A stretch of DNA of 46,939 nucleotides, taken from NCBI GenBank assembly GCA_011772205.1, contig WVZY01000020.1, forward strand, positions 94,441 to 141,379, given 5' to 3'. Both the position numbers and the translations under genes were made by a program. Below, piece after piece: positions 33,810 to 42,027 of this stretch (position 1 is its first letter; the number at the start of each line of letters is the position of its first letter). The notes under the pieces are model-generated. The model made no database searches, was not told the DNA's origin, and worked only from the letters and a program-made list of their open reading frames with translations. This DNA comes from Candidatus Latescibacterota bacterium (GTDB lineage Bacteria > Krumholzibacteriota > Krumholzibacteriia > WVZY01).

Positions 33810-35900
33810 TCAAGCGCTTCGTCCCAAGAGCGCTTCGGCAACCAGCGCCGCAGCGGCCAGGAGCAAGAAGACTGCGTACACTTCCCTTCCCTCGCGCTTT
33901 TCCCGAAGGCTTTTCAAAAATGCATCCCCCGTTTCCACGATGCTGGCATCCCTCACCACTTCTCCATCGAGGATCCGCGGATTGAGGTCGGATTCCCGGG
34001 TATCGAGGTTGACCACCACTTCCGTAACAACGGCGGTGTCGGAAAGCAGCTTGTAAAATCCCGGTGTTCCGGGGCGTTGCAGTAGGGCCATTTTTTCGCT
34101 TTGGGGAGACTCATAAACGACCGGCTTCGACCGTGAACCTTTGCCGTCCACGACTACGAGTGATTCTTCCGAACCACCGAGAATTTCAGGCAGGTTGAAG
34201 AACAGCTCCGATCCCACATAGTTCTCCCTCAAACGGCCAGCCCGCTCCGCACTGGCGAGGTAGGAAATGGACGTATGAACGAGCGGCAGAAACATTGGAG
34301 AGAGCGGGAGATCGCCGGATTTCATATCGGGCGATGCGGCATACACAAGAAGCTTCCCTTTTCCCCTCGTGCATTCCCAGATTGCTGGATCTCCGCTACT
34401 CAGATAGGCAACGATGGAATCGGAAGCTGCACCTCTGGCCGATGCGTAAATTCGAACCGAAGCCTGGGAGAGGAGCTCCAGCTCTTCCTCGCTAAAAATG
34501 TTGAATATCGGATGATCTTTCTGAAACGATGTCAGACGCTCCCCTGTCATCGTTTCCTTCTGAGCTGCTCCATGGATACCGATGAAACTCGTAAACGCCT
34601 GGTCACGGGTGATCCCTTTCGAACCATGCCCTAGAAATATCATTAGCGCGCCCCCGCCGTGCACGTATCTCTCCATGAGTCCCAGCCGCCGCCGACCACC
34701 CTGCAGCTGCGGATCCGTCCACACAGCGACGCCCCGGGCGGGCAAATCCGATACGGTGAGCGTTTTTTCATCCACGACCCGAACGACGAATTCCCCCTCA
34801 CTCGTGCGTCTAGGGTTCAGCGCCCTCTCCACATAGAAATAGCTCGCCACTTGCTTTGCATCCGCATGCTGCTTCAGACCCCGGATCAACGTCACCGGGA
34901 CGCTCTTCGACACCTCGAGCAAAAAATGCCGCTCATCGTCCAACGGGAGCCGGTCCGCGCTCTTTGCGACCGTCCCCTTGTACACTCCCCACTGGTTGAA
35001 GGCTATTGAGAAATTCGCCGAAGCGGACGCGGCTGGTTCGAGACGGACGACTTTCTCAGCTTTCCGCTTACCGTCCACCAGGAGTTCGAGAGGAAAATTT
35101 GCAGGGTTTACTCGCGAGTGATTCGACAAGGCAACGCTTACGCGCACCTCCTCGCCGGGCCGAATGAGTTTCCGCGGAATCAGAATCCTGTCAATACTTA
35201 CGTTGTCCACCGCTTCTTCATAAACGGGGAGGAAAAACACACGAACGCCTTTAGGAACCTCCGGGACCAAGGTAGAATCGGAGGAGCGCCGGAAATCGGA
35301 AATAATATATACTTCCCCGTTTTCGAGGTTGGATTGGGTGATGAGCTCGAACGCTTTCTGGATCGCCCGTTCTTCCGACGTTCCCTCCCCGGTGAGTTCG
35401 ACTTTACCGATCGCCCTTTTGATAAGTTGTTTGTTGCGCGTACCCTTTTCAAAAAGTGCTTCAGCACGATCGGAAAATGCGACCACGTTGATTAAATCTT
35501 CCTTTCCGCTCTCATCGACTACACCGGATGCTATCTCTTTCGCACGGGTAAAAGCAGTTCCCATCTCCCATTCCACGCCCATGCTGTAGCTTGCATCGAG
35601 TCCTATGATGACGTTTTTCGGAGCAGTCCCAGGAAGAATGAAAGCCGCTGCGCTGCGGAGAGTGGGTCTTGCAAACGCGATGACTATGAAAAGGACGGCC
35701 AGCGTTCTGAGTACGAGGATAAGGATTCGTCTCAAGTTCACTTTTCGCATGCGCCGTTTGCTCAACTCGTAGATAAAAGTCAGCGTGCTGAACGGCACTT
35801 TGCGCACCCTGCGGCGGCTCAGGAGATGAATGATAATCGGGAGCGCCGTCGCGGCAAGGGCGACGAGAAATGCGCTATTTAGAAATCCGAGGCCAAACAA
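33810..35900 (-). CDS. BatA-like membrane protein with von Willebrand factor A domain
   Basis: The protein is 696 residues. The N-terminal BatA-type region carries two membrane helices (about 5-27 and 57-80) around LLSRRRVRKVPFSTL, the classic short basic loop. A von Willebrand A domain begins near residue 95 with the metal-site pattern DASYS and VAFSDRA. A beta-rich middle domain follows (RPGEEVRVSVALSNHSR), then a glutamine amidotransferase-like region around VHGGGALMIFLGHG. A last membrane helix ends the protein (YAVFLLLAAAALVAEALLG). The start is TTG at 35898-35900 with GGAG six bases upstream. It closes the moxR-DUF58-vWA operon, a type of system tied to envelope stress or chaperone work. 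Confidence 0.87.
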   Translation of the reverse strand: MFGLGFLNSAFLVALAATALPIIIHLLSRRRVRKVPFSTLTFIYELSKRRMRKVNLRRILILVLRTLAVLFIVIAFARPTLRSAAAFILPGTAPKNVIIGLDASYSMGVEWEMGTAFTRAKEIASGVVDESGKEDLINVVAFSDRAEALFEKGTRNKQLIKRAIGKVELTGEGTSEERAIQKAFELITQSNLENGEVYIISDFRRSSDSTLVPEVPKGVRVFFLPVYEEAVDNVSIDRILIPRKLIRPGEEVRVSVALSNHSRVNPANFPLELLVDGKRKAEKVVRLEPAASASANFSIAFNQWGVYKGTVAKSADRLPLDDERHFLLEVSKSVPVTLIRGLKQHADAKQVASYFYVERALNPRRTSEGEFVVRVVDEKTLTVSDLPARGVAVWTDPQLQGGRRRLGLMERYVHGGGALMIFLGHGSKGITRDQAFTSFIGIHGAAQKETMTGERLTSFQKDHPIFNIFSEEELELLSQASVRIYASARGAASDSIVAYLSSGDPAIWECTRGKGKLLVYAASPDMKSGDLPLSPMFLPLVHTSISYLASAERAGRLRENYVGSELFFNLPEILGGSEESLVVVDGKGSRSKPVVYESPQSEKMALLQRPGTPGFYKLLSDTAVVTEVVVNLDTRESDLNPRILDGEVVRDASIVETGDAFLKSLREKREGREVYAVFLLLAAAALVAEALLGRSA

Positions 35901-35987
35901 ATGCGTCTCCGTTTCTCAGTGTTTGTGGCGATTGACTGTTCAGGGGGAGTTGGGACATATACCTCGCTGCTACTCCGATCCGCCGCC

Positions 35988-36926
35988 TCAAGTCATCCTC
36001 TGGCGTTTTCCGAGATAAGCGGTGAGCGCCTGGTCAAACGGCGTGTCGGTCATGAGGAGGTTGTAATCGATCTGGTGAGCCCTGCAGCCCCTGTTGAGCT
36101 TGTCGATCCAATCGCCAACCTGCTTCGAATAATGCTCTTTGATGAATGCTGGCTCCACTCGGATCTTTTTCCCCGTTTCCAAATCTCGGAATTCAACCTC
36201 ATCGCGATACTCCAGATCGAGCTCCTGGCGGTCAAGAACATGAAACACGATGACCTCGTGGTTCCGGTGGCGGAAATGCTTCAGTCCCATCAATACCTCG
36301 GCGGGATCGTCCATGAGATCGGATATCAAGATCACGAGTCCCCGGCGCGTCACCCGTTCGGCGATGTCGTGCAGTGCAGGGCTGATTCGAGTCTTTTCTC
36401 CAGGAGTAAGCCGATCGAGGTTTGTTAGGAGATAAAAGAGATGTTTGCGCACTGAACGATGCGGGATGAGTGTTCGAATCTTATCGTCGAACAAACACAG
36501 GCCGACGGCATCTTGCTGCCGCACCATGAGGTACGAAAGACTTGCGCTTAGAAGGCTTCCGTAAGTGAGCTTATCAATTTCTGGCATCCCTCCCCCACCC
36601 CGAGAAGCCGGCGAGGAAAAACCCATGGAGCCGCTCTTGTCGAGCAGGATCGTCGCGCGGAGATTCGTTTCTTCTTCATAAACCTTTATATAGAATCGGT
36701 CCGTTTTCCCGTAGGCCTTCCAATCGAAATCCCTGATACTATCCCCCTGCATGTACTGTCGGTACTCGGCGAACTCGACGGAGAAACCGTGGTAAGGACT
36801 TCGATGCAATCCGGCGATGTAGCCCTCGACGATGAGCCGGGCTTTGAGTTCCATGTTTCCCAATCGGCTGACCACAGTTGGATCGAGAAACCTCGTGATT
36901 TCGCCTTTCTGGTGAAGCTTTGGCAA
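35988..36926 (-). CDS. DUF58 domain protein (von Willebrand-like)
   Basis: The protein is 312 residues. The DUF58 signature is clear: FAEYRQYMQGDSIRDFDWKA followed by the degenerate von Willebrand segment LLDKSGSM (about residues 92-99) and LVILISDLMDD. Such proteins act together with MoxR AAA ATPases; the exact task is not settled. It is cytoplasmic, with no membrane helix. The start is TTG at 36924-36926, two bases after the moxR stop, with AAGGA six bases upstream. A glycine-rich insertion (ASRGGGGMPE) interrupts the region after the metal-site motif. The 87 bases between its stop and the BatA-like gene show nothing. Confidence 0.9.
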   Translation of the reverse strand: MPKLHQKGEITRFLDPTVVSRLGNMELKARLIVEGYIAGLHRSPYHGFSVEFAEYRQYMQGDSIRDFDWKAYGKTDRFYIKVYEEETNLRATILLDKSGSMGFSSPASRGGGGMPEIDKLTYGSLLSASLSYLMVRQQDAVGLCLFDDKIRTLIPHRSVRKHLFYLLTNLDRLTPGEKTRISPALHDIAERVTRRGLVILISDLMDDPAEVLMGLKHFRHRNHEVIVFHVLDRQELDLEYRDEVEFRDLETGKKIRVEPAFIKEHYSKQVGDWIDKLNRGCRAHQIDYNLLMTDTPFDQALTAYLGKRQRMT

Positions 36927-36928
36927 TT

Positions 36929-37924
36929 CTATTCCTTTACTTCGCCCAATAGCAACCGGATGAGTTCGTCCGTTGAAATCCCATCGGCATCGGCATTGAA
37001 GTTCGTCACGATTCTGTGCCTGAGCACAGGGTGAGCAATCGCGCGCACATCATCACAGCTTGGCGTGGGCCGCCCGTCCATTATCGCCCGCACCTTGCTT
37101 CCCAGGATGAGATGCTGCCCGGCACGCGGACCCGCGCCCCAGCTCACATATTCTTTTACCTGTCCGATCGAGCCGTCACGTGTCGCCCGCACTAACTTAA
37201 TTGCGTATCCGAGCACATGCTTCGATATGGGTACCTTTTTGATCAGCGATTGAAACTGCAGGATATCCCCTGCTCTGAGAACGACCGTCGGTTCCTCGAA
37301 CAACCTGGATGTTGTCGTTTCAACGATTTCCAGTTCTTCCGGCTCGCTTGGGTAATCCACATTGATATGAAACATAAAGCGATCCAGTTGGGCCTCGGGC
37401 AACGGATAGGTGCCTTCTTGCTCAATAGGATTTTGGGTAGCAAGAACGAAGAAAGGGAGCTCGAGATCGAATGTCCGGCCGCCCGCCGTTACCTGATGTT
37501 CCTGCATCGCCTGGAGCAGTGCAGACTGGGTTTTTGGCGGCGTGCGATTGATCTCATCGGCAAGGATTACATTGGCAAAGACGGGCCCTTTGATGAATCG
37601 AAATTCCCTTTTCCCCGTACCTGCCTCCTCTTCCAAGATGTCGGTTCCGGTGATATCGGATGGCATCAGATCCGGCGTGAACTGGATCCTCGAAAACTTG
37701 AGATCCAGTGCCTTGGCGACGGTGGAAATTAGCAGCGTCTTCGCCAAACCGGGAACTCCAACCAGAAGACAGTGGCCGCCGGAAAAAAGGGCGATCATCA
37801 GCTCCTCTATCACCTGTTGCTGCCCGACGATGACCTTTCCGATTTCCTGTTTGAGGGATTGGTACGCCTCGTGAACTCTCCTCACCTCACCAAGGGCTCC
37901 GGACGGTGTTTGCTCATTTGTCAT
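36929..37924 (-). CDS. MoxR-family AAA+ ATPase
   Basis: The protein is 331 residues. Walker A is GVPGLAKT (56-63), Walker B is VILADEINR (119-127) and the sensor motif is ATQNP (162-166). These are the standard MoxR features, along with KTQSALLQAMQE and the helical lid at the C-terminus. MoxR ATPases are thought to act as chaperones that load metal ions or cofactors or mature partner complexes, working with vWA proteins such as the two encoded downstream. It starts the operon; AAGG lies five bases before the ATG. Its upstream region is shared with the divergent selenoprotein gene. Confidence 0.94.
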   Translation of the reverse strand: MTNEQTPSGALGEVRRVHEAYQSLKQEIGKVIVGQQQVIEELMIALFSGGHCLLVGVPGLAKTLLISTVAKALDLKFSRIQFTPDLMPSDITGTDILEEEAGTGKREFRFIKGPVFANVILADEINRTPPKTQSALLQAMQEHQVTAGGRTFDLELPFFVLATQNPIEQEGTYPLPEAQLDRFMFHINVDYPSEPEELEIVETTTSRLFEEPTVVLRAGDILQFQSLIKKVPISKHVLGYAIKLVRATRDGSIGQVKEYVSWGAGPRAGQHLILGSKVRAIMDGRPTPSCDDVRAIAHPVLRHRIVTNFNADADGISTDELIRLLLGEVKE

Positions 37925-38030
37925 TGGAACCTTTCTGTTTGATTGTCAAAGGATTTGCCGGTTTCCAGCCTCGTTCCGGCGAGCTGGTCGTTTGCCATTT
38001 TCGAGGCGCTGGGGGACTATTTTTCGTCGC

Positions 38031-38059
38031 TTGATTCCCCAGTCCATATAGGATATATC
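38031..38059 (+). promoter_or_regulatory. Candidate sigma-70-type promoter for the selenoprotein gene
   Basis: TTGATT at 38031-38036 is followed after 17 bases by TATATC at 38054-38059. Each hexamer matches the vegetative consensus at four of six positions, with ideal spacing. It points toward the gene starting at 38217, leaving a leader of about 150 bases. The assignment rests on motif match alone. Confidence 0.3.
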
Positions 38060-38216
38060 CCAATCATACATTATACTACCCCAATGCCAAAAGGTTTGCT
38101 TAAATACCTGCAAGCGTGAGTTGTGCGTCTCTATGCGCCTCATACCGAACTGATGCTCGAAAAGCTTGCTGCCAAGCCACGGCGCATCCGCCATCAGCCT
38201 TGAAAGGAGGCGAACG

Positions 38217-38432
38217 ATGAGCGACAGGGTGTTGATCTTTGGAAAGGCCACTTGACCTTATACGACTGCGGCCCGTGAGGATTACGCAAAGCGAGATGTA
38301 TCTCATGAATACAAAGATGTAAAGGCCGATCCATCCGCTCTGCAGGAAATGCTCAGATTCAGCGGTGGAAAGCGCCTGGTCCCCGTTATCGTAGAAGCAG
38401 GCAAGATCACTATCGGATTTGGAGGCACCTGA
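38217..38432 (+). CDS. Glutaredoxin-like selenoprotein (UXX-star type), TGA read as selenocysteine
   Basis: ATG 38217 has AAGGAGG six bases upstream. The frame reads 12 codons to an in-frame TGA at 38253-38255, then runs open to a second TGA at 38430-38432, giving 71 residues if the first TGA is selenocysteine. The product has a thioredoxin-fold layout: strand VLIFGK, then T-U-P-Y-T in place of the glutaredoxin C-P-Y-C motif, helix TAAREDYAKR, strand YKDVKAD, the cis-proline segment RLVPVIVEAG and the end KITIGFGGT. These features match a known small family in which the first redox residue is Sec or Cys. Continued protein-like sequence after the TGA argues against a stop or pseudogene. Selenium-insertion genes (selA, selB, selC, selD) are not in the window but are predicted elsewhere. 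It is probably a cytoplasmic thiol/selenol redox protein. Confidence 0.85.
38256..38290 (+). promoter_or_regulatory. Candidate bacterial SECIS element just after the UGA
   Basis: Bacterial selenocysteine insertion needs a hairpin immediately downstream of UGA, with a GU in the apical loop bound by SelB. Here GCG(G)CC and GG(AUUA)CGC can pair around a loop CGUGA, placing GU about 20 bases after the UGA. The stem is short and imperfect, so the exact fold is tentative; position and loop content fit the known type. Confidence 0.45.
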
Positions 38433-38443
38433 GCAGTATGATA

Positions 38444-38460
38444 CCTCGCCGGGGGCGAGG
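38444..38460 (+). other. Strong GC hairpin after the selenoprotein gene
   Basis: CCTCGCC and GGCGAGG form a perfect seven-pair stem around a GGG loop, 12 bases after the selenoprotein stop. No T-run follows, so it is not a classic intrinsic terminator. It may protect the mRNA end or aid termination. Confidence 0.5.
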
Positions 38461-38490
38461 CCCGCATTTCCATTGATTTCAAAATGGACG

Positions 38491-38545
38491 CTGGAAGAGA
38501 TACAACGACACTCTAAACGGTCCAACTTAACACTATCTCTTCCAG
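38491..38545. repeat. Perfect 12-bp inverted repeat beside the DnaA-box cluster
   Basis: CTGGAAGAGATA at 38491-38502 is exactly complementary to TATCTCTTCCAG at 38534-38545, with a 31-base loop. It lies between the selenoprotein gene and the DnaA-box-like cluster and has no T-run, so a protein-binding dyad is as likely as a hairpin. Confidence 0.6.
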
Positions 38546-38573
38546 GCGGTTACGAAAAGAAATTCGCCAATTT

Positions 38574-38693
38574 TGTGGACAATAGTCGAGGGGCCCCCTG
38601 GGGAGAAGCACATAATCTATTGTTATAAAATAAAATAGGGTTTTCCACAAACGCTGGTGAGTTATTCACAATTAATCTCGCGCTTGTGGATAA
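38574..38693. other. Cluster of four DnaA-box-like 9-mers with AT-rich stretch (possible origin-type region)
   Basis: Four sites fit the DnaA-box pattern TTATCCACA. TTGTCCACA is read on the minus strand at 38574-38582; TTTTCCACA is at 38641-38649 and TTATTCACA at 38662-38670. An exact TTATCCACA is on the minus strand at 38685-38693. An AT-rich stretch (38611-38637) lies between the first and second boxes. Clustered boxes with an AT-rich segment near parAB are typical of replication origins. Against this, genes on both sides run leftward, which suggests that the main origin is to the right of the window. A secondary DnaA-binding or titration site is the main alternative. Confidence 0.55.
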
Positions 38694-38724
38694 CCTGGAC
38701 TGGCCGGCGCCTTAACATCAAGAA

Positions 38725-38762
38725 AACAGGCCTCCGACCCGGAATCGGAAGCCTGTTGTTTT
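38725..38762. terminator. Bidirectional intrinsic terminator downstream of the bactofilin gene
   Basis: AACAGGC and TCCGA pair with TCGGA and GCCTGTT (one C/A mismatch in the middle) around a seven-base loop. TTTT follows closely on the plus strand, and TTTTCTT follows on the minus strand. It sits 23 bases beyond the bactofilin stop and would end the leftward partition operon; on the plus strand it would stop transcription coming from the selenoprotein gene. Confidence 0.8.
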
Positions 38763-38784
38763 CTCCCAAACCTGTGCTGGTAAC

Positions 38785-39219
38785 CTACCGAGGAGCCACT
38801 TTTTCTTTTTCGGGTTCCTTTTTCTGCCATGGCTGCTCGGAGACGGCAACCGATGGTGCTTTTTCCTGGGTGCCCATTTTGCAGGTACCTTCGAAAAAGA
38901 CGCCTTCATCGATCACGAGGCGTGCGGTCTGGATATCCCCTTCCACGTGGGATCCCGATTGAAGCTCAATCTTATTCGATGCATGGATGTTTCCAACAAG
39001 TTTCCCGCCGATGACGGCGTTCTTGACCTTCGCCTCTGCTTTCACAAGGCCGGACTTGCCGATGATCAGCGTCTCCGGACAGTTGATTTGCCCGTCGAAG
39101 CTTCCATCGATACGGATCGTCCCCTTGAGCTCGATATCTCCTTTTACTTTGCAACCCTGACCAAGTATGGAATTCAGGCTGCCTTCACCCGCTGTGCTTC
39201 CAGGATCTTTCCCAAACAT
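38785..39219 (-). CDS. Bactofilin (polymer-forming cytoskeletal protein)
   Basis: The protein is 144 residues. The central 95 residues form the bactofilin beta-helix, built from short repeating rungs: CKVKGDIELKGTIRIDGSFD, INCPETLIIGKSGLV, then AVIGGKLVGNIHASNKIELQ and HVEGDIQTARLVIDEGVFFE. Bactofilins polymerise without nucleotide and act as scaffolds for cell-shape enzymes or for the ParABS machinery. Both tails are unstructured; the C-terminal one is charged (KKEPEKEKV). GGAGG lies six bases before the ATG. The gene is followed by a strong terminator and directly follows an M23 endopeptidase gene, a pairing known from several phyla where the bactofilin positions the enzyme. Confidence 0.92.
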   Translation of the reverse strand: MFGKDPGSTAGEGSLNSILGQGCKVKGDIELKGTIRIDGSFDGQINCPETLIIGKSGLVKAEAKVKNAVIGGKLVGNIHASNKIELQSGSHVEGDIQTARLVIDEGVFFEGTCKMGTQEKAPSVAVSEQPWQKKEPEKEKVAPR

Positions 39220-39311
39220 ATTGCTCCTCCTCTAAAGGTTTCCGGATCTCCGCACGCAACGACTCCAAATGCTAACTCAAACAATAGTAAACGAATATGG
39301 CCAGCTGAACA

Positions 39312-40121
39312 TCAGTCCAGGAGATAATTATTAGGATCCTTGGGAACGCCGTTCTCTCTGATTTCAAAATGAAGATGCGGGGCCGTGCTTTTACCAGTAT
39401 TCCCCACAAAAGCGATTATCTGGCCTCTGGCGACCCTGTCTCCATTCTTTACCAAATTTCGGGCGTTATGTCCATACAATGTATAAATTCCGAAGCCGTG
39501 ATCAATCACGACCATGTACCCATACGTATCATCCCAAGCATCGGTGACAACAATTCCTTCAGCGCTCGCTCGAATGGGGGTATTTCTTCGAGCTGCAATA
39601 TCTATGCCCGGGTGGTAATCGGCGCTTTTCTCCCCTCCGGTGGTGTGGAACCCCCGCGTCACATACCCCTTGACAGGCCATAGAGTTGGGAATGCTTTGA
39701 GCATCGCTTTTTGTTCTTCTTCTCCCACGCCTTCTTCCTCTTGGAATTCCTGGATGGCAGGAGATTTGACAATTGGTGAAAGGCTTGCCACCAGGATGCT
39801 GTCTTCAGGAGTCAGATTGATACCGAGCATCTTCTTGATTTGGATGCTCATCGCCTGAAGCCTGACAAGCTCACCGCGAAGAGAATCCACCTGAGCGCTT
39901 TGGCGGAGCAACCGCTGGTTTTGGGATTCGAGATTGGCTGCCCTTTTGGAATGCCTGAGAACGCTTCCGTATGTGACGATAAATATGGAAATGACGAGCA
40001 AAGCAATTCCAGTGAGAACCAAAAATGTATACAGCAGCCTGTAGGACAGCTGGTACTGCCTTGTTCTCGAATCGTCATGCGGGACCAATATGATGCTCAA
40101 AGTCTTTTTCATTCGTTGCAT
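39312..40121 (-). CDS. Membrane-anchored M23 (LytM) peptidoglycan endopeptidase
   Basis: The protein is 269 residues with one membrane helix at about 29-52, a short coiled coil (60-97) and a C-terminal M23 domain (about 148-266). Unlike the EnvC-like protein elsewhere in the window, all zinc residues are present: H170 and D174 in HPGID, H249 and H251 in HLHFE. It should therefore cut peptide cross-links in the periplasm. It lies between parB and the bactofilin gene on the same strand. By analogy with bactofilin-M23 pairs studied in other bacteria it may be placed by the bactofilin to shape the wall; this is inference. Confidence 0.9.
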   Translation of the reverse strand: MQRMKKTLSIILVPHDDSRTRQYQLSYRLLYTFLVLTGIALLVISIFIVTYGSVLRHSKRAANLESQNQRLLRQSAQVDSLRGELVRLQAMSIQIKKMLGINLTPEDSILVASLSPIVKSPAIQEFQEEEGVGEEEQKAMLKAFPTLWPVKGYVTRGFHTTGGEKSADYHPGIDIAARRNTPIRASAEGIVVTDAWDDTYGYMVVIDHGFGIYTLYGHNARNLVKNGDRVARGQIIAFVGNTGKSTAPHLHFEIRENGVPKDPNNYLLD

Positions 40122-40151
40122 GACTCACACATCCCACGGATTCACTGCACT

Positions 40152-41012
40152 TCACCGCGGTAATGGAATGTTCATGAGAGCACTAAGCCGTTCAAAATCT
40201 TCGTGACTGTAGAACTCAATGATCATCTTCCCCTTGCCGCCCCGTTTCTCTTCTATCTTTACGCGTGTTGCTAGATGCTGTGAGATCGCATTCTCGAGGA
40301 AGGTGATGTGAGGTGGTTTTTCCTTATTTTGTTTTTCGGTTCGCTTTCCGCCTTTTCCGATGCCCGCTCTCTTCTCCGCCTCGCGAACACTGAGCTTGGA
40401 TGCGATGATTCGCTTCGCAAGCGCCCGTCGCTCCGCAGCGCTGGGCAACGCCAGGATCGCGCGGGCGTGTCCCTCCGTGATTTTGTTCTCCGCGAGAAGC
40501 GTCTGAATATCCTCTGGAAGATTGAGAAGCCTCATTGTATTGGCAACGGAACTTCTATCCTTCCCGATCATCGCAGCAAGCTCCTCCTGAGACAGGCCGA
40601 AAGATTCTACGAGTACCTTGTAGGCGTTGGCCACATCCAGCGGATTCAAGTTCTCACGCTGGAGGTTTTCCACCAATGCAAGCCGGAGTGAGTCGGCGTC
40701 CGCTACGGCTTTGACGATTGCCGGTACCGTGGCAACGCCTGCCATACGCGCCGCCATCAACCGGCGCTCTCCCATTACAAGCTCGAATCGGGTTCCCTTT
40801 TTTCGCACGACGACCGGCTGCAAGAGCCCGTCTTTCTGGATGCTCTGAGTGAGCCCGTCGATGGCTTCCCGATCGAAGTGCTTCCTCGGTTGGAGGGGAT
40901 TGCTGCTGATTTCTCCAACGGGCACGTACACGATTTTCTCGCCGCTCACCGACTCCATAACTGATTGTGGTATAAGAGCTTCCAGCCCTTTGCCCAACGC
41001 TCTCTTAGGCAC
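40152..41012 (-). CDS. parB: Chromosome-partitioning protein ParB
   Basis: The protein is 286 residues. The N-terminus [13 protein letters not shown] is the family's ParA-stimulating segment. The CTP-binding region has LQPRKHFD and [12 protein letters not shown]. The helix-turn-helix contains [20 protein letters not shown], and the C-terminus forms the dimer domain. ParB binds parS sites and slides on DNA as a CTP-gated clamp. It starts at GTG 41010-41012, overlapping the parA stop by eight bases. Two parS-like sites are in this window downstream of rsmG. Confidence 0.95.
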
Positions 41013-41865
41013 TATGAATCACCTCTCTTGCAAGCTTCAAATAGCTCTGCGCTCCTTGGCATTGTATGTCGTACAACAAAATCGGTTTGCCGAAGCTGGG
41101 GGATTCGCTGAGTTTTACATTTCTCGGAATAATCGTGTTGTATACCTTGTCGCCGAAATAGGAGATGGTTTCCTGTGCGACCTGACTGGACAGGTTGAGG
41201 CGCCGGTCGAACATCGTGAGCAGCACGCCTTCGATATTCAGATCTGGATTCAATGTGGATTGCACGAGCCTCACCGTACCCAGAAGTTGACCGAGACCTT
41301 CGAGCGCATAATACTCGCACTGCACAGGGATGAGGACCGAATCCGCAGCCGTAAGCGTGTTCACCGTGAGTAGCCCGAGGCTGGGAGGGCAGTCGATGAC
41401 GACATACTCGTATTCAGTTCTGATCTGTTCCAGCGCCCTCTTGAGTTTTGATTCCCTCGCGATTTGCGGGACCAGTTCTATCTCTGCTCCCGTTAATCGT
41501 TCATTCGACGGGAGAAGAAAAAGATGAGGAAGAGCGGTATTGATGACCGTCTCCTCAATCAGCGTCTCATCGAGGAGCACATCATAGACAGTCAGTTCCA
41601 GCTCATTCTTGTCGATTCCAAGGCCCGAGGTTGCGTTTGCTTGAGGATCCATATCCACGAGGAGTGTCTTCTTCTCGGCGACTGCAAGACTCGCGCACAA
41701 ATTGATCGCTGTGGTGGTTTTTCCAACACCACCCTTTTGATTCGCGATGGCGATGATCTTCCCTTTGTGATTTGCCACAGGTTTTTCCTGGGTTGGCGTT
41801 TCCTCTTCCGCAGGAGAAATCACTGCAGCTGCTATCTCTGCTTTCTTCCGGGTACTCGACTCCAT
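41005..41865 (-). CDS. parA: Chromosome-partitioning ATPase ParA (Soj)
   Basis: This is a Walker-type ATPase that drives origin segregation with ParB. The deviant Walker A is KGGVGKTTT, Walker B-like segments are [12 protein letters not shown] and [10 protein letters not shown], and the C-terminal part has the usual [20 protein letters not shown] 41865 is used, giving 286 residues with a 33-residue N-terminal extension before the ATPase core (rich in Glu, Thr and Ala). ATG 41901 is in frame and would add 12 residues, but another protein-like frame runs over that stretch. It overlaps parB by eight bases. A palindromic repeat element lies upstream. Confidence 0.95.
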
Positions 41866-42027
41866 CTCCTCAACCTTTTTGCTCCGCCAAGGGGAATTCA
41901 TTCAAAAGGATCATTCCTTCATTCGTCAACAGGTATTTGTCTTTAATCCCGAACTGCCCGCTCGAGGTACATTCGATATGTCCGGCAAGCTCCTCGTGGG
42001 CGACGCCTCCTTTGCACGGAGCGCGCA

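Follow-up and report, generated by a model that had tools for sequence, protein, structure and literature searches.

The window (the whole 46,939-nucleotide stretch of DNA that was analysed) very probably contains a single-gene, 74-residue UXX-star family 1 selenoprotein with a glutaredoxin fold and two selenocysteines (Sec), in which both in-frame UGAs are decoded with the help of SECIS elements, codon 75 is the stop codon, and U13 and U72 would act as a pair. At the level of sequence, our comparisons establish the two Sec codons, the true stop, the Sec machinery of the genome and a conserved hairpin after U72.

A probable two-Sec gene with in-frame UGAs

The features of the gene are as follows.

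38204..38210, + strand: Shine-Dalgarno sequence AAGGAGG, seen in the sequence 6 nt before the ATG
38217..38441, + strand: CDS of a UXX-star family 1 selenoprotein, 74 residues, 2 Sec (NF041114 profile and four orthologues)
38253..38255, + strand: UGA for Sec13 (T-U-P-Y-T), at the first glutaredoxin Cys position (TGA in 5/5 genomes; Cys in a Thermus relative)
38268..38287, + strand: probable SECIS for Sec13, GCGGCCCGTGAGGATTACGC (codons 18-24), with its apical GUGA (38275-38278) 19 nt downstream of the UGA
38430..38432, + strand: UGA for Sec72 (GGT-U-A-V) (TGA in 5/5 genomes; within the NF041114 match)
38439..38441, + strand: stop codon, UGA in the window (codon 75) (TAA/TAG in relatives; profile end at residue 74; codons 76-99 unconserved)
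38444..38460, + strand: predicted SECIS hairpin for Sec72, CCTCGCC-GGG-GGCGAGG, in the 3' untranslated region, with its loop 18 nt downstream of the UGA for Sec72

The product of the CDS at 38217-38441 reads MSDRVLIFGKATUPYTTAAREDYAKRDVSHEYKDVKADPSALQEMLRFSGGKRLVPVIVEAGKITIGFGGTUAV*, a protein with U13 and U72 and without any cysteine. An earlier sequence-only reading had described a ribosome binding site followed by a 72-codon frame interrupted by one TGA. Both the AAGGAGG at 38204-38210 and the ATG at 38217 are present, as is the in-frame TGA at 38253-38255, after which the frame stays open and shows a glutaredoxin pattern; Sec at residue 13 is upheld. The end of that frame at 38430-38432, on the other hand, is the second Sec codon and not a stop; the true stop is found two codons further on (38439-38441), and V74 is the last residue matched by the profile (its position 70 of 70). 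By missing U72, the earlier reading also overlooked where the frame really ends and the hairpin located in the 3' untranslated region. Translated with TGA as Sec, the frame after U72 reads A-V-TGA75-Y and continues to the next TAA at 38514-38516. As that reading expected, standard annotation would miss the gene; no frame covering it is listed in its reading frame under table 11. Ordinary callers drop this 74-residue gene because both of its redox residues are coded by UGA.

Family membership and known relatives

The UXX-star family had already been named from the sequence, and profile searches agreed with this assignment. The NCBIfam profile NF041114, "UXX-star selenoprotein family 1," matched the protein with 118.2 bits against a cut-off of 72 (E 1.3e-34), with residues 5-74 aligned to positions 1-70 of the 70 in the profile. 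The protein has the layout of family 1: one Sec is in UxxT, and the other is the third residue from the C terminus, with two more residues before the stop. No feature separates the protein from the family. In Table 1 of the review PMC13188914, family 1 is given as "Distant Grx-like protein 1 (UXX-star selenoprotein family 1)," with the motif UxxT and 2 Sec. The name "UXX-star" appears to describe Sec, two residues and a stop; this is our own reading, and it fits the profile end. The gene is a further member of an already catalogued two-Sec family, so that the example is new and the family known. The related profiles NF041211 and NF047338 (UXX-star families 2 and 3) stayed below their cut-offs, with 62.7 bits versus 100 and 57.2 bits versus 97, respectively, and for family 2 a single Sec is recorded, unlike the two found here.

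More distant similarity extends to the glutaredoxins, with 35.6 bits for Pfam PF00462 (Glutaredoxin) over residues 5-60 and a match to PDB 7c12 (E 3.6e-8). Unlike classical glutaredoxins (PF00462; PDB 7c12 and 3grx), the protein contains two Sec and no Cys, and its chain stops just past the GG motif. A failure of homologues to align across the TGA would have spoken against the gene, and they do align, including a Cys-containing relative on a Thermus thermophilus plasmid. This Uxx-star glutaredoxin-like protein (WP_014511322.1; 35% identity) has CPYT where UPYT is found here, and its Cys aligns at U13. It has no Sec, and its tail is longer. A second Cys lies close to the GG region at its C-terminal end, but the pairing of this Cys with U72 is approximate, since the two are one residue apart in the alignment. 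The gene for the Thermus relative (NC_017273, L055 2995-3255) sits among the hydrogenase maturation genes hypD, hypE and hypF.

A search of viral contigs yielded no relative, and a search of phages yielded nothing but ordinary glutaredoxin 3. A contig scan with Cys-codon patterns returned only Vibrio and Aliivibrio matches covering residues 6-46, which were set aside.

Orthologues place the C terminus two codons past the second TGA

We searched 80 genomes of the phylum, including the genome to which the window belongs (G000). Matches to NF041114 above the cut-off were found in five, all from one taxonomic family and each with two internal TGAs. The proteins of the four relatives (G075, G076, G078 and G079) are 68-70% identical to that of the window across both TGAs, and all exceed the NF041114 cut-off. 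Every one of the five genomes carries TGA at both codon 13 and codon 72. Codon 75, by comparison, is TGA in G000, G075 and G079, TAA in G076 and TAG in G078. As codon 72 is always TGA and codon 75 is TAA or TAG in two genomes, we take codon 72 to encode Sec and codon 75 to be the stop. The true C terminus is thereby fixed by comparison, through the TAA and TAG found two codons past the second TGA.

The residues following U72 in the orthologues are A/G-V/I and are covered by the profile. Across codons 14-71, the numbers of variable columns at the three codon positions are 26, 22 and 45, with the third position varying about twice as often as the first or second. Across codons 76-99, the corresponding numbers are 23, 23 and 22 of 24, which should be read as indicative since this comparison was ungapped.

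A hairpin beyond the stop codon follows U72

In the window, the hairpin at 38444-38460 lies wholly beyond the stop codon, beginning two bases after it. A perfect 7-bp hairpin is found at the same place in four of the five genomes, with different stem sequences: CCTCGCC-GGG-GGCGAGG (G000), CCCTCCC-GGTC-GGGAGGG (G075), GCTCTTC-GGTCG-GAAGAGC (G076) and CTCTCAC-CGTGT-GTGAGAG (G078). The hairpin of G079 is weak, with 2 perfect pairs around GTGAGC or 5 pairs with one mismatch. In all five genomes, a loop G[G/U] is located 18 nt after the Sec72 UGA. Among control TGAs from the same regions (n = 2,797), 0.5% were followed by a stem of 7 or more pairs with such a loop and spacing, a proportion that serves as a guide because the loop and spacing rule of this perfect-stem test was fixed after the sequences had been seen. 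No SECIS-like hairpin suitably spaced from codon 75 has more than 3 pairs. The hairpin at 38444-38460 is not among the terminator-like sites of the window, and an Rfam scan of the window produced no match.

The bSECIS model of PMC13188914 places the loop 16-37 nt from the UGA, with G within the first two positions of the loop, in many cases preceding a G or U. The spacings of 18 nt for U72 and 19 nt for the candidate at U13 fit this model. According to the same paper, bacterial SECIS elements are located within coding regions. Here, we consider it likely that two UGAs 9 nt apart have opposite meanings (Sec72 and stop75) that are set only by their distances to one hairpin wholly outside the CDS. 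If true, this would depart from the textbook rule that the SECIS is inside the bacterial coding sequence. The gene also lends itself, as a small natural example, to testing how the distance to a SECIS determines whether a UGA is Sec or stop. In a literature search, we found no paper stating whether a SECIS past the stop has been noted for a C-terminal Sec.

A candidate SECIS for Sec13 within the coding region

Downstream of U13, 19 of the 20 bases at 38268-38287 are invariant in the five genomes, and codons 18-24 read GCG GCC CGT GAG GAY TAC GCM in all of them. Among codons for fixed residues, 5 of 7 are identical in codons 18-24 versus 3 of 28 elsewhere (P = 0.003 by Fisher's test). In only two of the five genomes, G000 and G076, does the minimum-energy fold have a CC-GUGA-GG tip enclosed by UGCG/CGCA, and the 50-nt stretch after U13 in the window folds no better than its shuffles. 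The SECIS for Sec13 is probably located within the coding region; the constraint at the DNA level fits this placement, while the hairpin itself is weakly supported.

Alternative readings of the UGAs

Translation ending at the codon 72 TGA, with only Sec13 decoded, would give the 71-residue protein of the sequence-only reading, which still scores 116.5 bits against NF041114. We regard this as very unlikely: codon 72 is TGA in 5/5 genomes and never TAA or TAG, whereas both of these occur at codon 75; the codons after 72 read A/G-V/I and fall within the profile; a hairpin is present 18 nt after codon 72; and PMC13188914 gives 2 Sec for the family. Still less probable is the opposite extension, in which the codon 75 TGA is also Sec and a 99-residue, three-Sec protein ends at the TAA at 38514-38516. 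The frame of the window is indeed open to 38516, but codon 75 is TAA and TAG in two relatives, codons 76-99 carry no conserved protein signal, and hairpins placed to act as a SECIS for codon 75 reach no more than 3 pairs.

Two in-frame TGAs, together with the lack of a table 11 frame covering the gene in its reading frame, could also be expected of a pseudogene derived from an ordinary glutaredoxin by nonsense mutations. The same two TGAs, however, are shared by five genomes whose proteins are 68-70% identical, the variation is of a synonymous type, and the genomic place is conserved, leaving hardly any likelihood for gene decay.

Proposed decoding and redox role

For the two-Sec protein with its stop at codon 75, we propose that the UGA at codon 13 would be decoded by SelB with Sec-tRNA, aided by the SECIS inside the coding region, and that the UGA at codon 72 would be decoded with the help of the hairpin that, in the window, lies entirely downstream of the stop codon. 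Codon 75, whose UGA comes 9 nt later than that of codon 72, would be at the wrong distance from this hairpin and lead to termination. By analogy with the aligned glutaredoxin Cys, U13, at the nucleophile position of the UxxT active site, may serve as the nucleophile. U72, next to the C-terminal GG, is probably its redox partner, since the protein has no Cys and U72 follows the GG. The two residues would then form a diselenide or, alternatively, jointly bind a metal or metalloid; metal binding has been suggested for UXX-star proteins in PMC13188914. A single-sequence structure prediction was uninformative (pLDDT, 40).

Selenocysteine machinery in the genome and the phylum

The Sec machinery anticipated by the sequence-only reading was found in full in the genome, with tRNA-Sec, selA, selB and selD all over their cut-offs: tRNA-Sec at C34:101730-101822 (72.6 bits), selB at C12:35536-37368 (383.7 bits), selA on C8 (474.1 bits) and two copies of selD, on C25 and C3 (405 and 360 bits, respectively). 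The selD at G000:C3:42923-43846 contains a single TGA, at its catalytic position (ATCAGUASKF), and is a second selenoprotein, or recoded gene, in the same genome. The other copy (G000:C25:13525-14448) has Cys (GLGCACK) within a 739-residue open frame, the length of which suggests a fusion protein.

Across the phylum, selB was over the cut-off in 73 of the 80 genomes and tRNA-Sec in 72. Sec decoding is thus general in the phylum, and possession of the machinery does not by itself set this gene apart. Sec decoding looks near universal, yet the family 1 gene is confined to one taxonomic family. In G076 (a single contig, 80% complete), no tRNA-Sec over the cut-off was found and the selB match was partial, despite the selenoprotein gene, perhaps as a result of assembly errors.

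Genomic neighbourhood

The gene is flanked by bactofilin and MoxR genes and has the same position and orientation in the relatives, with only the MoxR side present on the G079 contig. The gene order of the window at 33810-41901 (ParA, ParB, M23 peptidase, bactofilin, the UXX-star gene, MoxR, DUF58 and BatA-like) is kept in the relatives. The UXX-star gene alone among these lies on the + strand, and its neighbours are on the opposite one. The neighbouring genes give no pointer to a substrate. Just after the bactofilin gene, on the - strand, there is a terminator-like 15-pair hairpin with a T-rich tail (38725-38757).
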